From the NCBI RefSeq assembly GCF_020832205.1, contig NZ_JAFIFD010000043.1, forward strand, positions 1 to 38,958: a stretch of 38,958 bases of DNA, in the 5' to 3' direction. Shown piece by piece: positions 1,991 to 12,352 of this stretch. Source of the stretch: Exiguobacterium sp. Its GTDB lineage: Bacteria; Bacillota; Bacilli; Exiguobacteriales; Exiguobacteriaceae. Positions within the stretch are counted from its first letter, which is position 1, and every line of letters begins with the position of its first letter. Position numbers and translations under genes: made by a program. The notes beneath the pieces are model-generated. The model was not told the origin of the DNA and ran no database searches. It saw only the letters and a list, made by a program, of their open reading frames with translations.

Positions 1991-2044
1991 GTCTTTTCCA
2001 AAAAAAAGTTACACGTTATGACTCCTTATATTTAAATCACATAG

Positions 2045-2069
2045 AAAAACGACCCATCATTGGGCCGTT
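2045..2069 (-). terminator. terminator of the ureide operon
   Basis: Minus strand ACGGCCCA / TGGGTCGT with a four-base loop and a T-run. It lies immediately after the carbamate kinase stop and separates the operon from the hag promoter. Confidence 0.8.
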
Positions 2070-2074
2070 CCTCC

Positions 2075-3007
2075 TCACTTCACTACCACTTCCTCCACAA
2101 ACCTCGTCCCTGTCTTCCCTGCAATCGCCTCACCCGCTTGCTCGAGCGACGTGATGATCGCCTCACGCCCTGGCCGTGACGTCACGAACGAGAGCGCCGA
2201 CTCGACTTTCGGCAACATACTACCGGCCGGGAACTGCCCGTCTTGAATATACTCTCGTGCCTCATCCACCGATAACATCGCAATCCCGCGCTGCGTCGGC
2301 TTCCCAAAGTCGACTGCGACTTGGTCGACCGCCGTCAAGATGAACAACACGTCGACGTCAAGTTCACGCGCGAGCAGCTCACTTGCCCGGTCCTTATCGA
2401 TGACCGCATCGACCCCGACGAGACGTCCGTCTTCTCGGACGACCGGAATCCCGCCACCGCCACCGGCGATGACAACGTGGCCGGCTGACACGAGCGAACG
2501 GATCACGTCCACCTCGATAATCTCGATCGGTTCCGGTGACGGGATGACGCGGCGATACCCGCGCCCCGAGTCCTCGATGAACATCATCCCTTTCTTCTCG
2601 AACCGACCGGCCTCGTCTTTCGTATAAAATTGACCGATCGGTTTCGTCGGACGCTTAAACGCCAGGTCGTCTTTTGCGACGAGCGTCTGCGTCACGACCG
2701 ACGCGACCGCTTTGTCGATACCACGGCGTCCCAACTCTTCACGGAGTGCTTGTTGCAAATGATAGCCGATATATCCTTGGCTCATCGCAACGGCTTCCGC
2801 CATCGGGACGTCCGGTTGCGCGTCCGCCTCGTCGAACACTTGATGGATCATGCCGACTTGCGGCCCGTTCCCGTGCGATAAAATGATGTCGTGTCCGGCT
2901 TCAATCAAATCAGCGATCGAACGTGCTGCTTCGCGGACGAGTTCGAGCTGTTCGGTCGGACTGTTGCCGAGGGCATTCCCGCCGAGGGCGATAAGTAACT
3001 TAGACAT
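2075..3007 (-). CDS. allK: carbamate kinase (catabolic)
   Basis: Carbamate kinase of the amino-acid kinase fold makes ATP from carbamoyl phosphate and ADP, releasing carbamate that falls apart to CO2 and ammonia. The 310 residues match the usual family length. Visible motifs are the N-terminal GGNALG, SHGNGPQVG near residue 45, the glycine-rich GGGGGIPVV, and DKDRASELLA. The ATG at 3007 overlaps the stop of allG in ATGTCTAA, so translation is probably coupled. There are no arginine deiminase or ornithine carbamoyltransferase genes nearby, so the ArcC role is unlikely. Its place after allF/G/H matches E. coli ybcF (allK), which finishes oxalurate breakdown. The enzyme class is certain; the symbol rests on context. 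Confidence 0.9.
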   Translation of the reverse strand: MSKLLIALGGNALGNSPTEQLELVREAARSIADLIEAGHDIILSHGNGPQVGMIHQVFDEADAQPDVPMAEAVAMSQGYIGYHLQQALREELGRRGIDKAVASVVTQTLVAKDDLAFKRPTKPIGQFYTKDEAGRFEKKGMMFIEDSGRGYRRVIPSPEPIEIIEVDVIRSLVSAGHVVIAGGGGGIPVVREDGRLVGVDAVIDKDRASELLARELDVDVLFILTAVDQVAVDFGKPTQRGIAMLSVDEAREYIQDGQFPAGSMLPKVESALSFVTSRPGREAIITSLEQAGEAIAGKTGTRFVEEVVVK

Positions 3008-4403
3008 GGCTGACCTCCTCTGAATACGCTTTTAACGCTTTCGCGAAACAGTCGAGCGGCGGATGGACGATGCCGGCCCCGACTTGACCGATTCCGGCCT
3101 CGCGGTGCGCCATACCTGTGTTGATGACCGGGAGAACCCCCGTCTCGATGACTTTTCGAATGTCGATGCCGAGCGGCGTGCCGCGGAAATCGAGTGTCGG
3201 AATCGAGTACGTGTTGTTCTCGTCTTCTGTGATTGTATACATCGAACGCGAATAGTCGAGCGCGTCCTCGACTGCTCCCCCGACGAACTGCACGATCGCC
3301 GGGGCGCCGCCCATGGCGAAGCCGCCAATGCCGAGCGTCTCGGTGATGGCGCTGTCGCCGAGGTCCGGTGCCGCGTCAGTCGGCTCGAACCCTGGGAACA
3401 ACAACCCTTCGACGAAGTTCGCCGGTGCCGTGAACCATCCGTCGAGACCGCTCACCCGAATCCCGAAGTCGACACCGTTCCGTGCCATCGTCGTGACGAT
3501 GGTCGAGCCTTTCACGCCGTGACCGGCGTCAAGCGACGCTTTCGCCGCCGGCATCGACAAGTTGAGGAAATAGTGCTCATTCTTTTGAATGAAGGCGAGC
3601 GCTTGTTTCCGGACGTCATCATCCAAATCCGCTTCCAGAAACGCCGGCATCATGTCCCGAAGGAACAGGCTCGTCGCCGCCTTATTGCGGTTATGGCACT
3701 CGTCGCCCATATGGAGCGCCTGGGCGATCAACGTGCGCAAGTCGACCGGACCCGATACGTCGAGCGCTTTTTGAAGCGCCGACATGTACACTTTCTCAAT
3801 CCACCGTAAGCGCTCGAGCACTTCAATTGAGAACGCCCCGAAGCGGAGCACTTTCCCGAGCCCTTCGTTCACCGTGCAGTACGCCCGGTTCCCATCCGTC
3901 ACGTTCTCGATGATATGGACCGGCATCGATGGCGAGATGACGCCGGCCATCGGTCCGACCGCGTCATGCTCGTGGCATGGGGCGAACTCGATGGCACCCG
4001 ACGCCGCGAGTTCACGAGCCTCGGCTTCCGTCGTCGCGAGCCCTTCATAGAGGATGGCCCCGATGACGGCACCTTGCATCGGTCCACACATGTCCGCCCA
4101 TTCGACGGGCGGACCGGCGTGCAAGATGAGGTGGGCGTGCATCCCTGGAATCTCATAGCGAGCGTGGTTGATGCCTACGAGCATCGGATGGGCCGCTTTG
4201 ATCTTCGCGACGGCCTCCGCGTTCCGCTCATTCGTCTCATCCGTGTTCAACCGGTCGAGCGCTGCGAGCAAGGCGATATCCCCGCTCGCTGGAGGCGACC
4301 AGTCGTATTGGACGACGTCCGTCCCTTGCCGTTCGATATCTTTTGAGAACGTCGACGCCCCGATGTTGATGGCGTGTAACGTTGAATTGAACCAGTTAGC
4401 CAT
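3000..4403 (-). CDS. allG: DUF1116 protein, oxamate carbamoyltransferase subunit AllG
   Basis: This is a YlbE/DUF1116 family member, one part of the AllFGH complex that in E. coli converts oxalurate and phosphate to oxamate and carbamoyl phosphate. I place the start at the ATG at 4403 (MANWFNSTL, 467 residues). It follows a GGAGTGGAG ribosome site and overlaps the allF stop in ATGGCTAA. The longer frame, 22 codons upstream, would begin inside allF with a low-complexity basic stretch and is unlikely. Family-like features are the HAHLILHAGPPVEWADMCGP segment, CHEHDAVGPMAG, glycine-rich segments such as GIGGFAMGGAPA, and the C-terminal NTGMAHREAGIGQVGAG. It is probably cytosolic. The family assignment is firm; substrate specificity cannot be read from the sequence. 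Confidence 0.88.
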   Translation of the reverse strand: MANWFNSTLHAINIGASTFSKDIERQGTDVVQYDWSPPASGDIALLAALDRLNTDETNERNAEAVAKIKAAHPMLVGINHARYEIPGMHAHLILHAGPPVEWADMCGPMQGAVIGAILYEGLATTEAEARELAASGAIEFAPCHEHDAVGPMAGVISPSMPVHIIENVTDGNRAYCTVNEGLGKVLRFGAFSIEVLERLRWIEKVYMSALQKALDVSGPVDLRTLIAQALHMGDECHNRNKAATSLFLRDMMPAFLEADLDDDVRKQALAFIQKNEHYFLNLSMPAAKASLDAGHGVKGSTIVTTMARNGVDFGIRVSGLDGWFTAPANFVEGLLFPGFEPTDAAPDLGDSAITETLGIGGFAMGGAPAIVQFVGGAVEDALDYSRSMYTITEDENNTYSIPTLDFRGTPLGIDIRKVIETGVLPVINTGMAHREAGIGQVGAGIVHPPLDCFAKALKAYSEEVSHV

Positions 4404-5949
4404 GGATCTCCACTCCTTTTTTGACGATGGTGCTGGCGATTTCGACCGCCTCGGCGTTACTGCGGGCAACGAACGCCCCGACTTGTTCGAGACGACGTTT
4501 CTGGTCGGCGTATCCTTGTTTATCGGTGTCGGTGCCGCAGATGTACGTCACGATTGGCAAGATGCGACCTTCTCGTTTGGCGATCGCTTGCGCTTGTTTC
4601 AACGTCTCGATTGATTCCCCGACCGGGTCGTCGTGTGAACCGTAACCGAGTTCAAAGTCGAGGAGGAGTACGCCACACGTCGGATCGGCCGCTTCTTTTA
4701 AAATACGCTCGTTGCGTAGCGCCGGCTCGATCATCGGATGCGGCTTGCCGACCGTGAAGGCGTCATCGCCGAGGTCGACGAGCGTATGGCCCGTGCTCGT
4801 GAAGACGTCGGTCATTTTCTCTTCTGTGCGTTTGGCGACGTTGCTCGTGAGCGGATTGACCCGGCCCCGTAAAATCGACAGCGCCTCGGCCGTGAGCGTT
4901 CCCCCGCAGAACAAGCCGCGAATGAACCGCTCCGTCCCTTGCGTCCGGTGCACGACGTTGCTCCACGTCTTCGCCTCTTCTGAGACGAGTTCGACGTTCA
5001 AGTTCGGCTCATACGTCCGGACCGCGGCGAGCGCCGCCTCGAACAACGTCGTCGTGAACGTCACGTGTGGCGGCAAATCATCAGGTGCTTTTCCGTCAAG
5101 GAGACCAAGGACGACCGGCTTGTCGGCACGCGTCACACGTTCTAAAATCATCTGTTCGACTTCTTTGGCCGGCGGTTTCGAGATGAGAACGAGCACGTCC
5201 GTCGCCTCGTCCGCGAGCAACGCGTCGATACCTTGGCGCATCATGATGCCACCGATGTCACTCGACAAGTCGCGTCCTCCCGTCCCGATCGCTTGGGAGA
5301 CACCGTAGCCGAGCCGGTCGACTTGGACCATCACTTCTTGAAGGCCTGTCCCGGAAGCGGCGATCATGCCGATCCCGCCCCGGCGCACGTCGTTGGCGAA
5401 ACAGAGGCCGGTCCCGTTGATCATCGCCGTACCGCAGTCCGGCCCCATGACGAACAGTCCGTTCTCGGCGGCGTACGTCTTCAAGTCCCGCTCGTCTTCG
5501 ACTGAGACGTTGTCACTGAACAACATGACGTGAAGGCCGCTCTCGAGCGCCCGGCGTGCCTCACGGGCCGCGAACTCACCCGGCACCGAAATGACGGCGA
5601 GATTCGCCTCTGGACTCATCTCACGCGCTGCGCCAAACGTCGTCACGCTCGTCTTCTCGCCTCGCTTCCCGCCCGCTTTCTTCGCACCGAGCGCTGCCTC
5701 GACTTCTTCTAAGATTTGCGGTAGCACCGACTCTTCGGCACGACAAGCGATTAACAGGTCGGCATCAGACGCCTCACGCGCCTCGTCCGTCATGAGCCCG
5801 ACGTTCTCGAGCAGCTCTTTATTCATCGGGGTTGCCATCGAAACGATGACCTCATCGACTCCTTCTTGTTTTTTTAACTTCCCGGCGAGCGACATGAGCG
5901 TCACCGAGTCATGATACGTCTTCTTCTTCACGATCGTTTGATGAATCAC
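4396..5949 (-). CDS. allF: FdrA-family acyl-CoA-synthetase-like protein AllF
   Basis: FdrA belongs to the succinyl-CoA synthetase alpha-chain fold and is a part of oxamate carbamoyltransferase (AllF). The fold uses phosphate chemistry, which suits phosphorolysis of a ureido bond. Visible features are the N-terminal KKKTYHDSVTLM typical of FdrA, a nucleotide-binding segment ending in GPDCGTAMI, GMIAASGTGLQEVM, GTGGRDLSSDIGG, and a C-terminal domain with FCGGTLTAEAL and GYGSHDDP. I chose the GTG at 5949 because AAAGGA lies at a normal distance and the protein then starts MIHQTIVKKKTY like its relatives; the GTG at 5958 has no spacing. This gives 517 residues, against ~555 in E. coli. It overlaps allH by 41 bases. 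The family call is secure. Confidence 0.9.
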   Translation of the reverse strand: MIHQTIVKKKTYHDSVTLMSLAGKLKKQEGVDEVIVSMATPMNKELLENVGLMTDEAREASDADLLIACRAEESVLPQILEEVEAALGAKKAGGKRGEKTSVTTFGAAREMSPEANLAVISVPGEFAAREARRALESGLHVMLFSDNVSVEDERDLKTYAAENGLFVMGPDCGTAMINGTGLCFANDVRRGGIGMIAASGTGLQEVMVQVDRLGYGVSQAIGTGGRDLSSDIGGIMMRQGIDALLADEATDVLVLISKPPAKEVEQMILERVTRADKPVVLGLLDGKAPDDLPPHVTFTTTLFEAALAAVRTYEPNLNVELVSEEAKTWSNVVHRTQGTERFIRGLFCGGTLTAEALSILRGRVNPLTSNVAKRTEEKMTDVFTSTGHTLVDLGDDAFTVGKPHPMIEPALRNERILKEAADPTCGVLLLDFELGYGSHDDPVGESIETLKQAQAIAKREGRILPIVTYICGTDTDKQGYADQKRRLEQVGAFVARSNAEAVEIASTIVKKGVEIHG

Positions 5950-6754
5950 GATTCCCACTCCTTTGTGCGATAATGCCGGCGTGAACGCCGACTAAAAAGT
6001 CTGTGCCTGATGTCGAACCGATGGCGAGCACGCGTTTCAGTGCATCGAGGTCGGTCAACGAATGAAACAAATCGAGCACCGCCTCGTTCGTCCGTCCGTG
6101 ATACGCATGACGGAGCATCTGGTAGCTGACGCGCGTCGTCTTGTCGCGGCTGATCCGGAGCATCTCGAGCGGAACGTCGAGCGGTTGTCCGAGCAGATGA
6201 GCAGCGAGCAAGCGGCCGGTCACATAATCGTCGCCAGCAGGCGTCAGTCCGGGACCAAGACCGATCAACCGGTCGAGCTTTCCTTCTGCCATCACCTGGT
6301 CGATGAAGCGCTCTTCTGTGTTCCAACGTCCGGCGCTCAACGCCTCGAATCGTTTTCGATACGGCCTGAGCACCCCGCCTTCTTTTCCGTATGTGATGAG
6401 GAACTCGTACAACTCGTCGACCGAGGCGTCATCGACAGGACGTGCCTTGACGTGGAGGTCGACCGGTGCCGCGTCAAGCGACACCGTCAACCCGTTCTCA
6501 AACGTGAAACCTTCCCCGATGACGACGCGTGTCCCGATGTCCGGGGCGACCGAACGAAAGTCGAGCACATCACTCAGTTGAACCATATCGGGCGCGAGCG
6601 GACGACGGGGCGTGGAGACGGCAATCAGCCGATCCCGCTCAATCAACTCGATGTTCAGGACGTTTTGAAAGACGCTATGCACGTAACCGATCTGTCCATT
6701 CAACAAGCCGACGTCTAGCATCGCATCCCGCCGTACCCCCTCGAGCCAAGACAT
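5909..6754 (-). CDS. allH: DUF2877 protein, oxamate carbamoyltransferase subunit AllH
   Basis: YlbF/DUF2877 family, the third part of the AllFGH carbamoyltransferase. The family signature LIGLGPGLTPAGDDYVTG lies near residue 165, and GSTSGTDFLVG near residue 250. There are 281 residues, no signal peptide and no membrane segment. The ATG at 6754 shares one base with the stop of the upstream permease (TAATG), and the 3' end overlaps allF, so the four enzyme genes are one translation-coupled block. The family is certain from the two glycine motifs; the role in the complex is taken from the E. coli proteins. Confidence 0.88.
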   Translation of the reverse strand: MSWLEGVRRDAMLDVGLLNGQIGYVHSVFQNVLNIELIERDRLIAVSTPRRPLAPDMVQLSDVLDFRSVAPDIGTRVVIGEGFTFENGLTVSLDAAPVDLHVKARPVDDASVDELYEFLITYGKEGGVLRPYRKRFEALSAGRWNTEERFIDQVMAEGKLDRLIGLGPGLTPAGDDYVTGRLLAAHLLGQPLDVPLEMLRISRDKTTRVSYQMLRHAYHGRTNEAVLDLFHSLTDLDALKRVLAIGSTSGTDFLVGVHAGIIAQRSGNRDSSNDREEEDVS

Positions 6755-8298
6755 TATGACACCTTCTCTCGTTCCGGAACGACGTCTTCTTTTGCCCGGT
6801 ACAGGCTGAGCGCGATCAAGCCGGCTGCGGCGACGATGTAGCCGATAGCGACATCTAGCCCGACACCGATCCCGATTTCGGCACTATGAATGATGCCGAA
6901 GAAAGCGAGCAGTGCGGCAATCCCGGCATAAACCGCGGCGAGCCGGAACTTTTGATCGATAATGTAGATGACAATCGTTGCTAAGAGCATCGAGACGAGA
7001 ATGTCCGCCGAGCCGAGCGTCTGCCAGCCAAGATACGGGATCCCGTTCGCAGCAAGCGTTGCGTAGCCGACTTCTTGTGCCGACGTCCCGATCGCACCGA
7101 GTGCGTTGTTCACTTGCGTGATGATATAACTCGCGACGAACGGCATGAGCGCGATGATGAGCGCCGGGATATGCCGTTTCTCCGTCTCCCCGAACGCCTG
7201 GGCCCCGATGACCATCGCGATATAGACGAGGATCGGAAGCAAGGCGACGAGCGGAATGACTGACAAGACGAGCGGGAGCAAGCCGAGGAAGGCGAGGAAG
7301 ATGACCCCGACCCCGGTCGCTAGCGAGTAGCCGACGCGGGCCCCGGCTTTCTTCCAACCCGGGTGGCCGATGTAGATGATCATCGGATAGACGCTACCGA
7401 AGAAAGCACCAACGAGTGTAAGGAGTGCCGGGACGAGCATTGTGATCGTCGTCGGGTAATGGTCCCCGTCCGCCGCCGCACTTTCGATGTTGTCGAGACT
7501 CTCCAAGAAGTCATAGATGGCGAGCGGGATCGCCGCCGGTAGGAATGGCGCGAGAAGCGCAAAACCTTCCGCGAGCAAGTCGAGCCCGAAGATTGACGGG
7601 AACGCGAGCGAGAATCCGGCCGCTGCCGTGCGTACTTCATTAAAGTCCATGTAGCCTGTCGCCCAGGCGAGCACCATCCCGACCGCAATCGCCATAAGGC
7701 CGGCCGGCATATTTCCCGGTAAGCGCTTATGGGCGAGCCAGCCGGCGAGCACGATGACGAGCGTGAGCAACCCGATGTACGGTGTTGTATACACTTGTCC
7801 GAGCGGGTTCATCGCGATATATGTGAGCGCGATTCCCGCGAGCGAGGCAAGCATCGCCGAACGTGGGATGTACTTTTGGATGAATGGGCCGATGAACGCC
7901 CCAATCGTCATGATGAGACCTTGGACAATGTTCCAGGCGACACCGACCGCCCAAGCGATCATCCAGTCGTTCGTTTGAACATAGACCGGGAGCATGACCG
8001 CGAACGCGACGACGAAATAGTGCGGGACACTGATCCCGTACGGCATCGCGGTGACGTTGTCGCGACCTTCCCGTTGTGACAGGCGACGTGCCTGGAAGGC
8101 GAGGATGATGCCGCCGAGACCGACCGCGATCGCCGTCGCCGGGACGATCTTCCCATAGACGATGTCGCCCGGCATATTGATGGCGAAGACAAGGAGTCCG
8201 ATTGCCGCCAACAAGTTCGTGAGCACGTTACTGAATAAACCGAAGAACCCGTTCAAGTCCCCTTTGACGAACCATGGGGTGGCGTGTCGGTCATTCAT
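6754..8298 (-). CDS. NCS2-like nucleobase/ureide permease, copy 1
   Basis: A polytopic membrane protein of 514 residues with about 12 hydrophobic segments, of the xanthine/uracil/vitamin C permease superfamily. Features shared with the second permease of this operon are GDLNGFFGLFSN at the N terminus, VTAMPYGISVPH, the acidic segment FLESLDNIESAAADGDHYPT (the NCS2 substrate-site region), GHPGWKKAGARVGYS, and PILVYIAMVIGAQAF. The start at 8298 (MNDRHATPW) is chosen over the ATG five codons upstream because GGAGGAG then lies at normal distance and the start overlaps the amidohydrolase stop in ATGAATGA. Substrates of this branch are largely untested. Context suggests a ureide or related small amide, as inference only. 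Confidence 0.8.
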   Translation of the reverse strand: MNDRHATPWFVKGDLNGFFGLFSNVLTNLLAAIGLLVFAINMPGDIVYGKIVPATAIAVGLGGIILAFQARRLSQREGRDNVTAMPYGISVPHYFVVAFAVMLPVYVQTNDWMIAWAVGVAWNIVQGLIMTIGAFIGPFIQKYIPRSAMLASLAGIALTYIAMNPLGQVYTTPYIGLLTLVIVLAGWLAHKRLPGNMPAGLMAIAVGMVLAWATGYMDFNEVRTAAAGFSLAFPSIFGLDLLAEGFALLAPFLPAAIPLAIYDFLESLDNIESAAADGDHYPTTITMLVPALLTLVGAFFGSVYPMIIYIGHPGWKKAGARVGYSLATGVGVIFLAFLGLLPLVLSVIPLVALLPILVYIAMVIGAQAFGETEKRHIPALIIALMPFVASYIITQVNNALGAIGTSAQEVGYATLAANGIPYLGWQTLGSADILVSMLLATIVIYIIDQKFRLAAVYAGIAALLAFFGIIHSAEIGIGVGLDVAIGYIVAAAGLIALSLYRAKEDVVPEREKVS

Positions 8299-8986
8299 GG
8301 TCTTCTCCTCCAATCGCGTTCAAAAATTCACTAGACGGCGCCGTCCAGCCGAAGATGCCTCCTTGTTGGTGGATCATGCGAATCGAATCCTCATGGTCTT
8401 TCGGATCGAACGCCGCCGAGCAATCTTCGAGTAATAGACAGTCGTACCCGCGGTCGTTCGCCTCACGGATCGTCGTCTGTACGCAAACGTGCGTCGTCAC
8501 ACCGCCGACAAGTAAGTGCGTGATCTCTTTTTGTTTCAGGACGTCATCGAGTTCGGTGTTGTAGAACGCACCTTTCCCCGGCTTGTCGATGATCGTCTCC
8601 CCGTCGAGCGGTTTCAACTCGTCGACGATGTCATGGCCGTACTCGCCACGGACGAGGATGCGTCCCATCGGACCTTCGTCGCCGATGCCGGCGCCTTGTT
8701 TCTTGCCGCGGTTCAACTTGCTCGGTGGGCAGTCCGACAAGTCCGGCAAGTGCCCTTCCCGCGTGTGGATGACGGTCATCCCGGCCGCACGGGCCGCCTC
8801 AAGGACACGCTGTGTCTGCGGGATGATTGAACGGGTGAGCGTGATGTCGTTCCCGAGCTTCTCGCCGAAGCCGCCCGGTGCACAGAAGTCGCGCTGCATA
8901 TCGATCAAGACGAGTGCCGTCGACTCAGGACGGAACGTGAAGTCATATGGTTTAGCTTGCATTTTCATTTCGGTTGTCGTGTTCAT
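8291..8986 (-). CDS. isochorismatase-fold cysteine amidohydrolase (biuret-hydrolase-like)
   Basis: A cytosolic amidohydrolase of 231 residues with the cysteine-hydrolase triad visible: D29 (LVLIDMQRDF), K134 (IIDKPGKGAF) and C167 (GGVTTHVCVQTT, with the usual non-proline cis turn before it). From memory it is closest in pattern to biuret and triuret hydrolases: HTREGHLPDLSDCPPSK, GAGIGDEGPMGRILVRGE, REANDRGYDCLLLEDC and QQGGIFG. It differs more from RutB-type ureidoacrylate hydrolases. In this operon it could make the ureido substrate for AllFGH (for example allophanate from biuret, or oxalurate from its amide) or remove ammonia from oxamate afterwards. The start at 8986 has an AGGAGG site. 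The fold and triad are sure; the substrate is not. Confidence 0.85.
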   Translation of the reverse strand: MNTTTEMKMQAKPYDFTFRPESTALVLIDMQRDFCAPGGFGEKLGNDITLTRSIIPQTQRVLEAARAAGMTVIHTREGHLPDLSDCPPSKLNRGKKQGAGIGDEGPMGRILVRGEYGHDIVDELKPLDGETIIDKPGKGAFYNTELDDVLKQKEITHLLVGGVTTHVCVQTTIREANDRGYDCLLLEDCSAAFDPKDHEDSIRMIHQQGGIFGWTAPSSEFLNAIGGEDHE

Positions 8987-10514
8987 GGGTGATTCCTCCT
9001 AATTGATGATTTGATTTGTTTTTACCGACGATATAAAACAGGAAGCCGATGATGACGTAACTGAGCGCCATCGGGCCATTGACCGCGAAACCGACCGTCT
9101 CCGCATGGATGATGCCAAAGAAGGCGAGCATCGCCGCGATCAAACTCGCGAGCGCCGCCTTGTGGAAGGTCCGGTCGATGATGAAGACGAGGATGCTCGC
9201 CCAGAGGACGCTGACGAGGATTGCACCCGAGCCGAGGACGGACAAGCCTTCATAGTTGAGCCCCGCGGCGAGGATAGTCGCGTAGCCGACCGTCGCCGCA
9301 TCTGTCTCGGCGGCGTTCAGTGACGTGTTAATAATATTGTGCCCCCAGTTCGCGACCCACGGGATGATCGCCAAGATGACGGCTGGCGCGTAGCGTGGGT
9401 TCGTCTCTTGGAACGCCTGGGCGCCGATGACGAGACCGATATAGATGAGGATCGGTAAAATCGCGACGACCGGGATGATGGCGTATAAGACCGAGACGAT
9501 GCCGAACCACGTCAAGACGAGCATCGTCACCCCCGTCATCCAGGAGTAGCCGATCCGCGCGCCCGCCTCTTTCCAACCGGCGTGGCCGATATAGACCGCG
9601 ATCGGGAACGGGCTACCGAACGAGCTCGCGACGAGTGTCGACGTGGCGTCGAAGACGAGCGCTTGGCGCGTCGGGTATTTATCTCCCGCTACTTCCGCGC
9701 TCTCCAAGTTGTCGATCGTCTCCATGAAGTTATAAATACCGAGCGGCACAGCCGAGGCGAGGAACGGTAAGGCGACCGCCCAACCGTCGACGAGCCGGGT
9801 GACCGAGAACGTCGGGGCCGACAAGTTGACGGCAGCGAACGCCTGGCTCACTTCACGGACGTCCATCACCCCGCTCACCCAACCGATGAACGTACCGGCG
9901 AGGATGGCGACGAGACCGACAGGGAGACGAAACGGCATGTTCACTTTCCCGAACCAGCCGAGCAAGATGATGCTCAAGGAGACGAGTCCGGTGTACGGGA
10001 CGTCCCACGTGTCCATCGCCGGGGCCATCGCGATGAACGTGAGCGACACTCCGGTGAGCGTCCCGAGCATCGCCGGGCGCGGTAACCATTCCCTGATTTT
10101 CGGGCCGATGAGCGAACCGCTCATCGCAATCAACCCGTTGACGAAACACCAGACGAGCCCTGTCGTCCAGGCGAGATACGGGTCTTCTGTCTTCCAGTAG
10201 ACCGGACCCATGATCAAGAAGACGATGAGGAACATGTGTGGGACGCTCACCCCGGTCGGGAGTGCCGTCACGTCCGTACGTCCCTCCTCCTTCGACAGCC
10301 GGATCGCCATGTATGTGTAGAACAGGCTGCTGACGAAGATCGATAAGCCGACGGCCGGTAGGATTTTGCCGTACACGAGCGTGACCGGCAATCCGATGGC
10401 GAGATGAAGCAGACCCGCCATGACAAGTAAATTTGTTAAGTTGTTCGTGAATAGACCGAAGTACCCGTCCACATCCCCTCTCGTCCAATACTTGATTCGA
10501 AATGGTGAGTCCAT
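8952..10514 (-). CDS. NCS2-like nucleobase/ureide permease, copy 2
   Basis: First gene of the ureide operon. The protein has 520 residues and about 12 membrane segments, and is paralogous to the permease at 6754-8298 (shared GDVDGYFGLFTN, VTALPTGVSVPH, METIDNLESAEVAGDKYPT, GHAGWKEAGARIGYS). The copies differ at many residues inside motifs, including FMETIDN here against FLESLDN there, so they may take different substrates. The start at 10514 (MDSPFRIKYW) has GAGG eight bases upstream; the earlier ATG at 10571 would lie in the promoter leader. Its end overlaps the amidohydrolase gene by 35 bases. A role in uptake is inferred from family and context. Confidence 0.8.
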   Translation of the reverse strand: MDSPFRIKYWTRGDVDGYFGLFTNNLTNLLVMAGLLHLAIGLPVTLVYGKILPAVGLSIFVSSLFYTYMAIRLSKEEGRTDVTALPTGVSVPHMFLIVFLIMGPVYWKTEDPYLAWTTGLVWCFVNGLIAMSGSLIGPKIREWLPRPAMLGTLTGVSLTFIAMAPAMDTWDVPYTGLVSLSIILLGWFGKVNMPFRLPVGLVAILAGTFIGWVSGVMDVREVSQAFAAVNLSAPTFSVTRLVDGWAVALPFLASAVPLGIYNFMETIDNLESAEVAGDKYPTRQALVFDATSTLVASSFGSPFPIAVYIGHAGWKEAGARIGYSWMTGVTMLVLTWFGIVSVLYAIIPVVAILPILIYIGLVIGAQAFQETNPRYAPAVILAIIPWVANWGHNIINTSLNAAETDAATVGYATILAAGLNYEGLSVLGSGAILVSVLWASILVFIIDRTFHKAALASLIAAMLAFFGIIHAETVGFAVNGPMALSYVIIGFLFYIVGKNKSNHQLGGITHEHDNRNENAS

Positions 10515-10545
10515 AGGCGTGACCTCATTTCTTAAAATGACTGCA

Positions 10546-10630
10546 AATTCGCGAATTCTTGGTACACCCATAACGTACCATCGAATCTTTTATCAATCAT
10601 TGTCAACAAAATATGAATGAAGCGCTTTCA
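10546..10630 (-). promoter_or_regulatory. promoter/operator region of the ureide operon
   Basis: On the minus strand a consensus -35 TTGACA lies at 10601-10606; no good -10 is present at 17 bases, as expected for an activator-dependent promoter. Downstream lie GGTAC-N9-GTACC (10561-10579) and a perfect 12-base palindrome AATTCGCGAATT (10546-10557). Upstream of the -35 lies TGAAGCGCTTTCA (10618-10630), a catabolite-response-like sequence lacking one base. Candidate sites for PucR and CcpA; binding is inferred. Confidence 0.4.
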
Positions 10631-10715: not shown

Positions 10716-10741
10716 GACATGCAAAAAGACGAGCGCATGTC
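10716..10741 (-). terminator. weak hairpin at the end of pucR
   Basis: GACATGC (10716-10722) pairs with GCATGTC (10735-10741), overlapping the pucR stop codon. The loop holds a TTTTT on the transcribed strand, and there is no T-run after the stem. At most a weak terminator or mRNA end. Confidence 0.3.
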
Positions 10742-12296
10742 ACAATTCGGACAAACGTTCGTCTTCGATACGACTATTCAACACGTGCAACGCCTGGGAG
10801 GCCACGTAATATTCGCTCATCTTCTCCCCATCCGTCAAATCAAACCCGAGTGCTTTCAGACGTTCAATCCGGTATCGCAGCGTATTGTAATGAATGAACA
10901 ACTGTTGTGACGCTTTTTGGACGTTCATTTGGCAACGGATGAGCGTCAAGAGCGTGCGCAACAATTCCTCTTCCCCGAGAAGACGGCCTAGTCTACGTTC
11001 GACGAGCCGACGGAGCGGCGCATCCTCGAGTTCGAACAGCAACGCATACATCCCGAGCGCGTCGACGGTTTGGACCGGCTCGAGATTGATGCTACGCATG
11101 ATCCGCAGCGTTTGGCGCAGCCGTTCATATTCACCCGCCAAGTCGCGCAACCGATCGATTCGGGACGAGCAGGCGATGATGACGTCACGACGTTCGCGCG
11201 CCGCCTGCTCATGCACGTACGTCCCGAGCTCGATGAGCGTCGTGTCGTCCGGCTCATTGACGAAACAGATGAGGCTGTCCTCGTAATAAATGACTTTATG
11301 CGTCAACTCACGGTCACTGAAGCGTCCGGATAGCCACCGCTCGAACCGCTCAATCGTCTCACTCTCTGGCAACATCCGGACTTTTTGTTCGACCGCGATC
11401 ATACCGAGCGGGAGCGACAAGTTCCAGTTGAAAGAATGGGCGCGCCTAAGAACTTCTTCTTCACTGCGAAACCGGCCGTTCAAAATGTCACGGAGAAACG
11501 CGTCCAAGTAGTTACGCTCTTGCTCAAGAATGGCGCGTTCACGTTGAAAATCAAGAGCCAATAGAATGGAGGCTTGCTCCATCGCCACGTGGATCGTCGT
11601 CGTCCGTTTCCCGGCGACATCGAGCGCGATCAGTTCGCCGAGTGATTCCTCGCCGACCCGGATTGGTTGGGCAATGACCTCATCCCCCGTGAAAATACGG
11701 TCACCTAGCTTGACCGCCATCCCATCCCGTTCGAACGGTTCATCTGAAATCGACTGAGCGCGCAAGTCGCCTTGGCCAGAGAATAGGAAGACCGGCATTT
11801 GAATCATCCCCGACAAGACGGTAACGAACGTGTTGATGTGCGCCCCGTTCAGCAGAAGGCGCATCAGTTGTTGGTGAATCTCATCCCTGAATTTCAAAAT
11901 GGAGTTTTGTTTCTCCAATAACACTTCAAGCACCGCGTTACTTAATCCCGAAAGGTTTGCGTCTTCCGGCAGCGTGATGAGAGGAAAATTGTGGTGGTCG
12001 GCCGCTTCGACCATCATATCGGGCAGGGTCGTGACGTAACGCCCGAGTTTGACCGCAAGACCGGCCAACCCTTTTTCCGCGAGACGCGGGACAAGTTCCC
12101 GCATCGCTTCCTCGTTCCCGGCGATCGGATAAAACGTCGTCAATAAGAGACTCCCTTTTGACACGTAAGGCAAAATGTCGGGCACTTCCATGAACGAGAC
12201 GTTATTCACGAGCCGGTCCACGCCCTCTTTCCCGGCGATGACCGTCGCCCCTGCATAGGCAGGTAAAGCCAAAACTGCCTCCACATCGATTTTCAC
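10740..12296 (-). CDS. PucR-family transcriptional regulator
   Basis: A 518-residue PucR/CdaR-type regulator. The N-terminal PucR domain (about residues 5-125, LALPAYAGATVIAGKEGVDR then SFMEVPDILPYV) resembles that of purine and ureide catabolism regulators. A GGDEF-like middle region follows, and the C-terminal helix-turn-helix holds MNVQKASQQLFIHYNTLRYRIERLK. The start is the GTG at 12296, seven bases after GGAGGG; the longer ATG frame would begin in the upstream terminator region. It lies just upstream of the two-permease operon on the same strand, so it is the likely activator. B. subtilis PucR responds to allantoin-type effectors; the effector here is unknown. Confidence 0.88.
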   Translation of the reverse strand: MKIDVEAVLALPAYAGATVIAGKEGVDRLVNNVSFMEVPDILPYVSKGSLLLTTFYPIAGNEEAMRELVPRLAEKGLAGLAVKLGRYVTTLPDMMVEAADHHNFPLITLPEDANLSGLSNAVLEVLLEKQNSILKFRDEIHQQLMRLLLNGAHINTFVTVLSGMIQMPVFLFSGQGDLRAQSISDEPFERDGMAVKLGDRIFTGDEVIAQPIRVGEESLGELIALDVAGKRTTTIHVAMEQASILLALDFQRERAILEQERNYLDAFLRDILNGRFRSEEEVLRRAHSFNWNLSLPLGMIAVEQKVRMLPESETIERFERWLSGRFSDRELTHKVIYYEDSLICFVNEPDDTTLIELGTYVHEQAARERRDVIIACSSRIDRLRDLAGEYERLRQTLRIMRSINLEPVQTVDALGMYALLFELEDAPLRRLVERRLGRLLGEEELLRTLLTLIRCQMNVQKASQQLFIHYNTLRYRIERLKALGFDLTDGEKMSEYYVASQALHVLNSRIEDERLSEL

Positions 12297-12315
12297 AAGA
12301 CATCCCTCCACACTC

Positions 12316-12324
12316 AGTGTAGCA
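12316..12324 (-). promoter_or_regulatory. extended -10 promoter of pucR
   Basis: Minus strand TGCTACACT, an extended -10 that abuts the T-run of the receptor gene's terminator and lies just before the GGAGGG site. The leader would be only ~15 bases. Confidence 0.45.
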
Positions 12325-12352
12325 AAAAAGCGCATGCTTTCGCATACGCTTT
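12324..12352 (-). terminator. terminator of chemotaxis receptor gene
   Basis: Minus strand AAAGCGTATGC, GAAA loop, GCATGCGCTTTTTT. It lies five bases after the receptor stop codon. Confidence 0.85.

Follow-up and report, generated by a model that had tools for sequence, protein, structure and literature searches.

The window analysed here is a 38,958-nucleotide stretch of Exiguobacterium sp. DNA (contig NZ_JAFIFD010000043.1), and our subject is a tightly packed block of seven minus-strand genes at 2075-10571 that encodes permease 1, a cysteine hydrolase, permease 2, AllH, AllF, AllG and the carbamate kinase ArcC, with end-to-end overlaps between genes. The start of the block moves from 10571 to 10514 if permease 1 begins at its second in-frame ATG. 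The features of the locus are as follows.

10740..12335, minus strand: pucR, gene for a PucR-type regulator, upstream of the block (PF07905, 112.3 bits, plus HTH_30)
8952..10571, minus strand: permease 1, UraA/SLC26-type fold (predicted model and PDB matches; possible start at 10514)
8291..8986, minus strand: TrtA/BiuH-type cysteine hydrolase, His class (Isochorismatase domain, 157.2 bits)
6754..8313, minus strand: permease 2, homologue of permease 1 (44% identity by alignment)
5909..6754, minus strand: allH (DUF2877; PF11392, 82.3 bits)
4396..5958, minus strand: allF/fdrA, 520 residues, subunit with a CoA-ligase fold (NF004760, 514 bits, cutoff 433; PDB 3dmy, FdrA)
3000..4403, minus strand: allG (DUF1116), homologue of an oxamic transcarbamylase (OXTCase) subunit (PF06545, 320.7 bits; PDB relative 3clq)
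2075..3007, minus strand: arcC, carbamate kinase, 310 residues (TIGR00746, 367.7 bits, over the cutoff of 358.25)
2043..2074, minus strand: terminator-like hairpin from the first base after arcC (14-pair stem, T-rich tail; consensus match only)

The allG open reading frame (ORF) opens with a TTG at 4469 and has an ATG at 4403. Terminator-like sites across the whole region number 8, against 11.0 in shuffled sequence, which is no excess. AllF, AllG and AllH homologues are all encoded in the one block, and the ORFs and domain scores bear out an earlier sequence-only reading that had described seven overlapping minus-strand genes with AllF, AllG, AllH and carbamate kinase among them. A phosphohistidine mechanism was considered for AllF, whose His407 is invariant in 81 of 81 aligned rows; the PDB succinyl-CoA ligase alignments stop short of that part of the protein, however, and we therefore claim no catalytic mechanism for it.

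The block is not a chance array, because the same eight genes, pucR again opening the locus, stand in the same order in Peptoclostridium acidaminophilum, follow the window order in loci L027 and L028 (loci are numbered L and genomes G), and recur rearranged in the distantly related Bacillota genomes G049 and G313, where the order is pucR, allF, allG, permease, hydrolase, permease, arcC. The operon and its amidohydrolase-allFGH linkage, which the sequence-only reading had proposed to check by gene order, thus hold far beyond the genus. Within the genus AllG occurs in 4 of 19 genomes and a strong BiuH-family match in two (G000, G015), both AllG-linked; in G010 and G016, the remaining AllG carriers, the allFGHK set is another one that lacks this hydrolase and whose AllG shares 61% identity with the E. 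coli K-12 protein. That set (L005, L007) adjoins a major facilitator superfamily-type transporter gene in L005 and may provide an oxalurate-type contrast to the window operon. Among 398 Bacillota genomes, 60 have AllG and five have a BiuH-family match at E ≤ 1e-50. Three of these five matches lie beside AllG, that of G181 is on a contig with allF and allH (its allG sits at the start of another contig), and G237, which alone of the five exceeds the BiuH cutoff, gave no match to AllG. A permease-hydrolase-permease-allFG-arcC locus is also held by a metagenome-assembled record titled Staphylococcus epidermidis (L029), possibly a mis-binned contig.

At the limits used, neither permease matched any model of Pfam or NCBIfam. 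The AlphaFold2 model of permease 1 (predicted local distance difference test score 88.1) matches SVCT1, UapA and UraA with Z scores of 22–28, and SLC26 proteins too; the predicted fold is the type common to UraA, UapA, SVCT and SLC26, and for this reason the earlier label "NCS2-like" is valid at the level of the fold only, in the permease 1 model. Nucleobase, ascorbate and anion transporters have this fold in common, so it leaves the substrate undecided.

The best PDB matches of the hydrolase are TrtA (6xix, 273.1 bits) and RhdBiuH (6xjm, 271.6 bits), followed by BiuH (6azo, 256.1 bits). The catalytic D24, K129 and C162 and the substrate-binding Q202 of TrtA are all conserved in it as D29, K135, C168 and Q208; K138 is conserved as well, and H166 is distinctive. 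Six sites separate TrtA from BiuH, namely F35, N41, A134, E160, Y187 and I205 of TrtA from Herbaspirillum sp. BH-1 (PMC7948467), and the window enzyme is identical to TrtA at four (F35, N41, A134, I205), with His for Glu160 and Phe for Tyr187; its gene also differs from trtA in having AllFGHK genes after it in place of BiuH and AtzF. With BiuH of Rhizobium leguminosarum (PMC5806882) it shares the family, the catalytic triad and the equivalents of Lys145 and Gln215, whereas the equivalents of Tyr47, Tyr53, Asp173 and Val218 are F40, N46, H166 and I211, none of them BiuH-like, and it lies below the cutoff of the BiuH equivalog model NF050097 (309.8 versus 370 bits). At most of the discriminating sites the residues of the hydrolase side with TrtA and not with BiuH; the earlier description "BiuH-like" stands at the level of the family. 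At the Glu160 site the class to which the window enzyme belongs has His, TrtA has Glu and BiuH has Asp. TrtA-type genes read E and Y at the fourth and fifth discriminating sites; BiuH-type genes carry Y, Y, D, T, V. In 19 His-class loci the six sites read F, N, A or S, H, F or Y, and I, with Gln at 208.

On balance we think it probable, with considerable room for doubt, that the operon takes up a polyuret, triuret being the likeliest, and breaks it down via carboxybiuret to carbamoyl phosphate and ATP, and so conserves energy. We infer the substrate, both AllFGH reactions, the ATP yield and the direction of transport from homology, residues, neighbouring genes and trees; the carbamoyl phosphate and ATP logic of the operon is plausible on the same footing. 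One or both permeases would import the polyuret, and the TrtA-like hydrolase would take one terminal amide off triuret as ammonia to give 1-carboxybiuret. AllFGH would intercept this before it decays (carboxybiuret + phosphate → carbamoyl phosphate + allophanate) and would probably then act on the second product (allophanate + phosphate → carbamoyl phosphate + carbamate). ArcC would use carbamoyl phosphate and ADP to make ATP and carbamate, the latter falling apart to CO2 and ammonia, and the yield could be up to two ATP per triuret, against none by the hydrolytic TrtA-BiuH-AtzF route. Oxalurate, carboxybiuret and allophanate each combine a carboxylate with a terminal carbamoyl group of the urea type. 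Carboxybiuret, the product of TrtA, decays with a half-life of some 20 min (PMC7948467) and is released by AtzD as well (PMC6219798). In E. coli, AllFGH catalyses the reversible conversion of oxalurate, likewise an acylurea ending in a carboxylate, to oxamate and carbamoyl phosphate (PMC11326118).

What follows the hydrolase gene bears on this proposal. The 19 His-class loci comprise the window, L006, L013, L014, L018 and 14 members of an 80-locus set, which is the best 80 of 580 candidates, a non-random sample whose neighbours were counted within the fetched stretch. Eleven of the 19 have allF/allG without a BiuH gene, six have a BiuH gene without allFG (L026, L031, L032, L035, L038, L041) and two are cut at a contig end (L025, L036); L038 ends just past the hydrolase, so that allFG cannot be excluded there. 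A TrtA/His gene is found in 75 of the 80 loci: BiuH and AllFG together accompany it in none, BiuH without AllFG in 39, AllFG without BiuH in 12, and neither in 24 (Fisher's test, 5e-5, kinship ignored). By type, BiuH accompanies a His gene in 6 loci and a TrtA gene in 33 (12 of these with AtzF), never with AllFG. Without BiuH there are 8 His loci (5 with AllFG, 3 with neither) and 28 TrtA loci (7 with AllFG, two of them also with AtzF; 5 with AtzF; 16 with neither), and BiuH stands alone in 5. L030 was scored as neither with its allF cut by the contig end, though allF and allG were found there separately; L049, L056, L060 and L062, scored likewise, have a distant allG-like gene and no allF. 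L025 and L034 additionally hold an AtzD-family gene. In seven loci (L044, L047, L048, L063, L079, L091, L093) a TrtA-signature gene lies beside a permease-1 homologue, with no BiuH, AllFG or AtzF called in the fetched stretch, and AtzF-like blast matches occur in L020, L037, L059 and L068.

Whole genomes were searched for other enzymes that could take over the hydrolase product. In the window genome AtzD was not found, urease gave no match, and no BiuH-like gene besides the operon hydrolase appeared at E ≤ 1e-50. Two matches to the AtzF model TIGR02713 (230.6 and 153.6 bits; cutoff 511.05) were rejected as AtzF and read as GatA-like amidases, because they cover the amidase part only and no AH_C domain match was found. 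Among 13 genomes tested, AtzF over the cutoff is missing from all 12 that carry AllG and is found in G237, and urease matches occur in G181 and G227 only, partial and barely over the cutoff. G031, in which an AtzD-family gene accompanies AllFGH, gave no urease match, no AtzF above the cutoff and, at E ≤ 1e-50, nothing BiuH-like. The AtzD-AllFGH combination is also present in G130, G227, G230 and G255, and each of the five genomes has one amidase-family match, taken as GatA, AtzE's own model not having been searched. AtzE is a relative of GatA and would be expected to appear among amidase-family matches.

These data can also be read to mean that allophanate is the only AllFGH substrate, the hydrolase also or instead cutting biuret to allophanate and AllFGH replacing AtzF. 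The distribution of AtzF fits such a scheme, G237 being AllG-less with AtzD and BiuH, as does G181, which unites AtzD, a BiuH-signature gene and allF/allH; RhdBiuH, moreover, acts on biuret and triuret alike (PMC7948467). We consider it unlikely, though well worth entertaining, in view of the absence of a BiuH gene from all 12 AllFG loci with a TrtA/His gene, of the four BiuH residues from the window hydrolase, and of any BiuH-like gene (E ≤ 1e-50) from the five AtzD-AllFGH genomes, which with their single amidase-family match have no known enzyme to make allophanate. A quite different possibility is that carboxybiuret first decarboxylates and AllFGH phosphorolyses the resulting biuret (biuret + phosphate → carbamoyl phosphate + urea). 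The short half-life of carboxybiuret would favour this, and BiuH would then be unnecessary; urea nitrogen would, however, be lost, as the window genome gave no urease match, and the known AllFGH substrate has a carboxylate, so that we find it very improbable. Least probable of all is that the operon joins two independent modules, polyuret hydrolysis and oxalurate breakdown, as published for nitrifiers. In PMC12625717, comammox Nitrospira and ammonia-oxidising archaea have trtA/biuH-family genes near allFGHK, as here, with oxalurate treated as a separate substrate and two separate pathways proposed; in comammox AtzF and BiuH are also present, whereas neither was found here. A polyuret module would be a dead end in a genome in which no AtzF over the cutoff, second BiuH-like gene or urease was found, and the permeases, hydrolase and AllFGHK move as a single block across genomes.

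The carbamoyl donor of the window operon is probably not allantoin-derived oxalurate, since the genome gave no urease match and neither AtzF nor allantoinase reached its cutoff, in agreement with the sequence-only reading, which had looked for a donor source other than allantoin. An allantoin link had been considered for the best allantoinase-model match (249.4 bits) and was dropped at the cutoff of 357.85; such a sub-cutoff match occurs in all four genomes of the genus tested, other allantoin genes not having been searched genome-wide.

AtzD-family genes, found in 12 of the 398 Bacillota genomes and full-length in 11, provide a second line of evidence. Ten of the 11 are in AllG genomes, compared with 60 of 398 overall (Fisher's test, 3e-8, uncorrected for kinship and including several close relatives). 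The gene lies ≤3 kb from AllG in 8 genomes; in G181 it occurs together with allF and allH, and in G345 it is about 12 kb from a weak AllG match. Seven score above 480 bits (482-560), and six of these are in AllG genomes, five ≤3 kb from AllG; the exception is G237, with AtzD, BiuH and AtzF. The idea that every AtzD-family gene encodes a cyanuric acid hydrolase was dropped for G156, G236 and G386 (L112-L114; 404-425 bits, tandem AllG) and for G345 (390 bits), whose products may be barbiturase-like. The tandem allG of L112, L113 and L114 stands beside the lower-scoring gene, with distant allB/allC-like genes in two of the three, and perhaps belongs to a pyrimidine or barbiturate route. Over its full length the AtzD of G031 aligns with 6BUM, the crystallised Moorella enzyme (732 bits), and differs from it where the crystal construct was engineered according to PMC6557486; judging by this protein, G031 is probably a Moorella. 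Its AllG and AllF are 81% and 79% identical to those of G313, which has a His-class hydrolase.

Trees of AllG (93 rows, quick; 46 rows, careful) and AllF (40 rows, quick) repeat this pattern. The careful AllG tree, which omitted the distant rows L049, L056, L060 and L062 and retained 10 rows without recognised context, has three well-supported sister sets that mix the two hydrolases: AtzD loci L107-L109 and L111 with His loci L013 and L014 (100/99), AtzD locus L023 with TrtA loci L019 and L020 (100/99), and AtzD locus L110 with His locus L030 (100/98). A fourth mixed set, L018 with L016, is weaker (83/92). The AllF tree recovers the first two and supports the L018/L016 set (99); the AllF of L030 was too short for inclusion. 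By these trees and neighbourhoods, the upstream partner of AllFG alternates between TrtA-type enzymes and AtzD. The E. coli K-12 AllG forms a clade (100/100) with L145, L005 and L007, and the window AllG lies outside it. AllFGH must also have further roles, since 54 of the 93 AllG rows have no recognised context.

The tree bears as well on an oxalurate pathway, in which the hydrolase would act on an amide, for example oxaluramide, to give oxalurate, which AllFGH would convert to oxamate and carbamoyl phosphate as in E. coli. Oxamate/oxalurate is the only measured AllFGH activity found (PMC11326118), and the unusual His166 leaves room for a different substrate. The window operon resembles that of the E. 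coli oxamic transcarbamylase and AllK (PMC11326118) in encoding the three subunits along with a carbamate kinase, but no allantoin genes adjoin it, its partners are the hydrolase and two permeases, and its AllG and AllF are 48% and 40% identical to those of K-12, whose clade includes the other set of the genus. AtzD, in the hydrolase's place at sister loci, yields carboxybiuret and not oxalurate, and the operon has no further gene able to use oxamate. We thus regard an oxalurate pathway as distinctly unlikely.

Triuret via carboxybiuret is favoured, then, because most discriminating sites of the hydrolase are TrtA-like, because TrtA and AtzD, which both release carboxybiuret, alternate beside AllFG, and because the K-12 AllG belongs to a separate clade; the same three points speak against the earlier view that oxalurate, allophanate and biuret-type compounds fit equally. 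Several observations weigh on the other side. Carbamoyltransferase equilibria favour carbamoylation (PMC4016543), so phosphorolysis would need the pull of ArcC and of CO2 and ammonia loss. In the open-access literature we found no report of AllFGH acting on carboxybiuret or allophanate, nor any paper that ties the complex directly to either compound, to triuret or to cyanuric acid, save for the co-location in PMC12625717; the evidence on the substrate comprises linkage, residues and trees. Neither His at the Glu160/Asp173 site nor Phe for Tyr187 is seen in any of the characterised enzymes compared (TrtA, BiuH, RhdBiuH). Of the eight AtzD-family genes closely linked to AllG, three belong to the low-scoring kind, whose products may act on a different substrate, and the gene content of G181 points to allophanate rather than carboxybiuret there. 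Other downstream routes exist, given the 24 of 75 TrtA/His loci with neither BiuH nor AllFG, and L061 and L066 combine AllFG with AtzF. AllFGH also looks redundant in comammox genomes, which hold trtA, biuH, atzF and allFGHK together (PMC12625717).

Related operons also occur in enterobacteria. A TrtA-like hydrolase-allHFG-arcC operon with an adjoining cytosine permease gene is found in L168, L169 and an E. coli plasmid locus (L019 5816-11374). The L019 hydrolase has the TrtA signature, and next to the operon, at 11391-11780, L019 encodes the C-terminal domain of allophanate hydrolase (AH_C, 143.5 bits) as a protein by itself. Of 5426 complete E. coli genomes, 1547 contain DNA matching the hydrolase-allH-allF-allG-arcC segment of L019, 1543 of them across 80% or more of its length, at 1488 chromosomal and 127 plasmid places. 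It lies between ysgA and metE in both chromosomes inspected, and the one hydrolase compared is 96% identical to that of L019. This is an AllFGHK-like set apart from the E. coli allantoin one. A second cassette (L023 2739-10381), with AtzD, an NCS2 permease, allHFG and arcC, has matches in 49 plasmid records (47 of them cover 80% or more of its length, and 36 are predicted conjugative) from Citrobacter, Klebsiella, Enterobacter and other hosts, some records being listed from showers; its AtzD scores 580.9 bits against a cyanuric acid amidohydrolase cutoff of 360.

The chances seem to us about even that this whole AllFGH branch consists of carboxybiuret/allophanate carbamoyl-phosphorylases that couple triuret and cyanuric acid breakdown to ATP in Bacillota, on mobile plasmids of enterobacteria and in more than a quarter of complete E. 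coli genomes. Cyanuric acid and triuret are triazine and fertiliser residues and urate oxidation products. If the idea is right, both would feed substrate-level phosphorylation beyond their role as nitrogen sources, the steps that are missing downstream of the Moorella cyanuric acid hydrolase, itself well studied, would be named, and the second AllHFG-carbamate kinase set of E. coli would gain a function. The AllFGH family would then cover several acylureas, where only oxalurate was found reported, and carboxybiuret would have a third fate beside the deaminase and decarboxylase routes.

Two minor observations concern other genes. In E. coli K-12, yahE-yahF-yahG-yahI-yahJ (L167 2926-9508) appears to be another set of AllH, AllF, AllG and carbamate kinase, accompanied by an amidohydrolase. 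Near a flagellin gene of the window, a short ORF at 44-541 resembles by eye a longer gene of L006 (3946-4782), which we presume may be LAGLIDADG-like.

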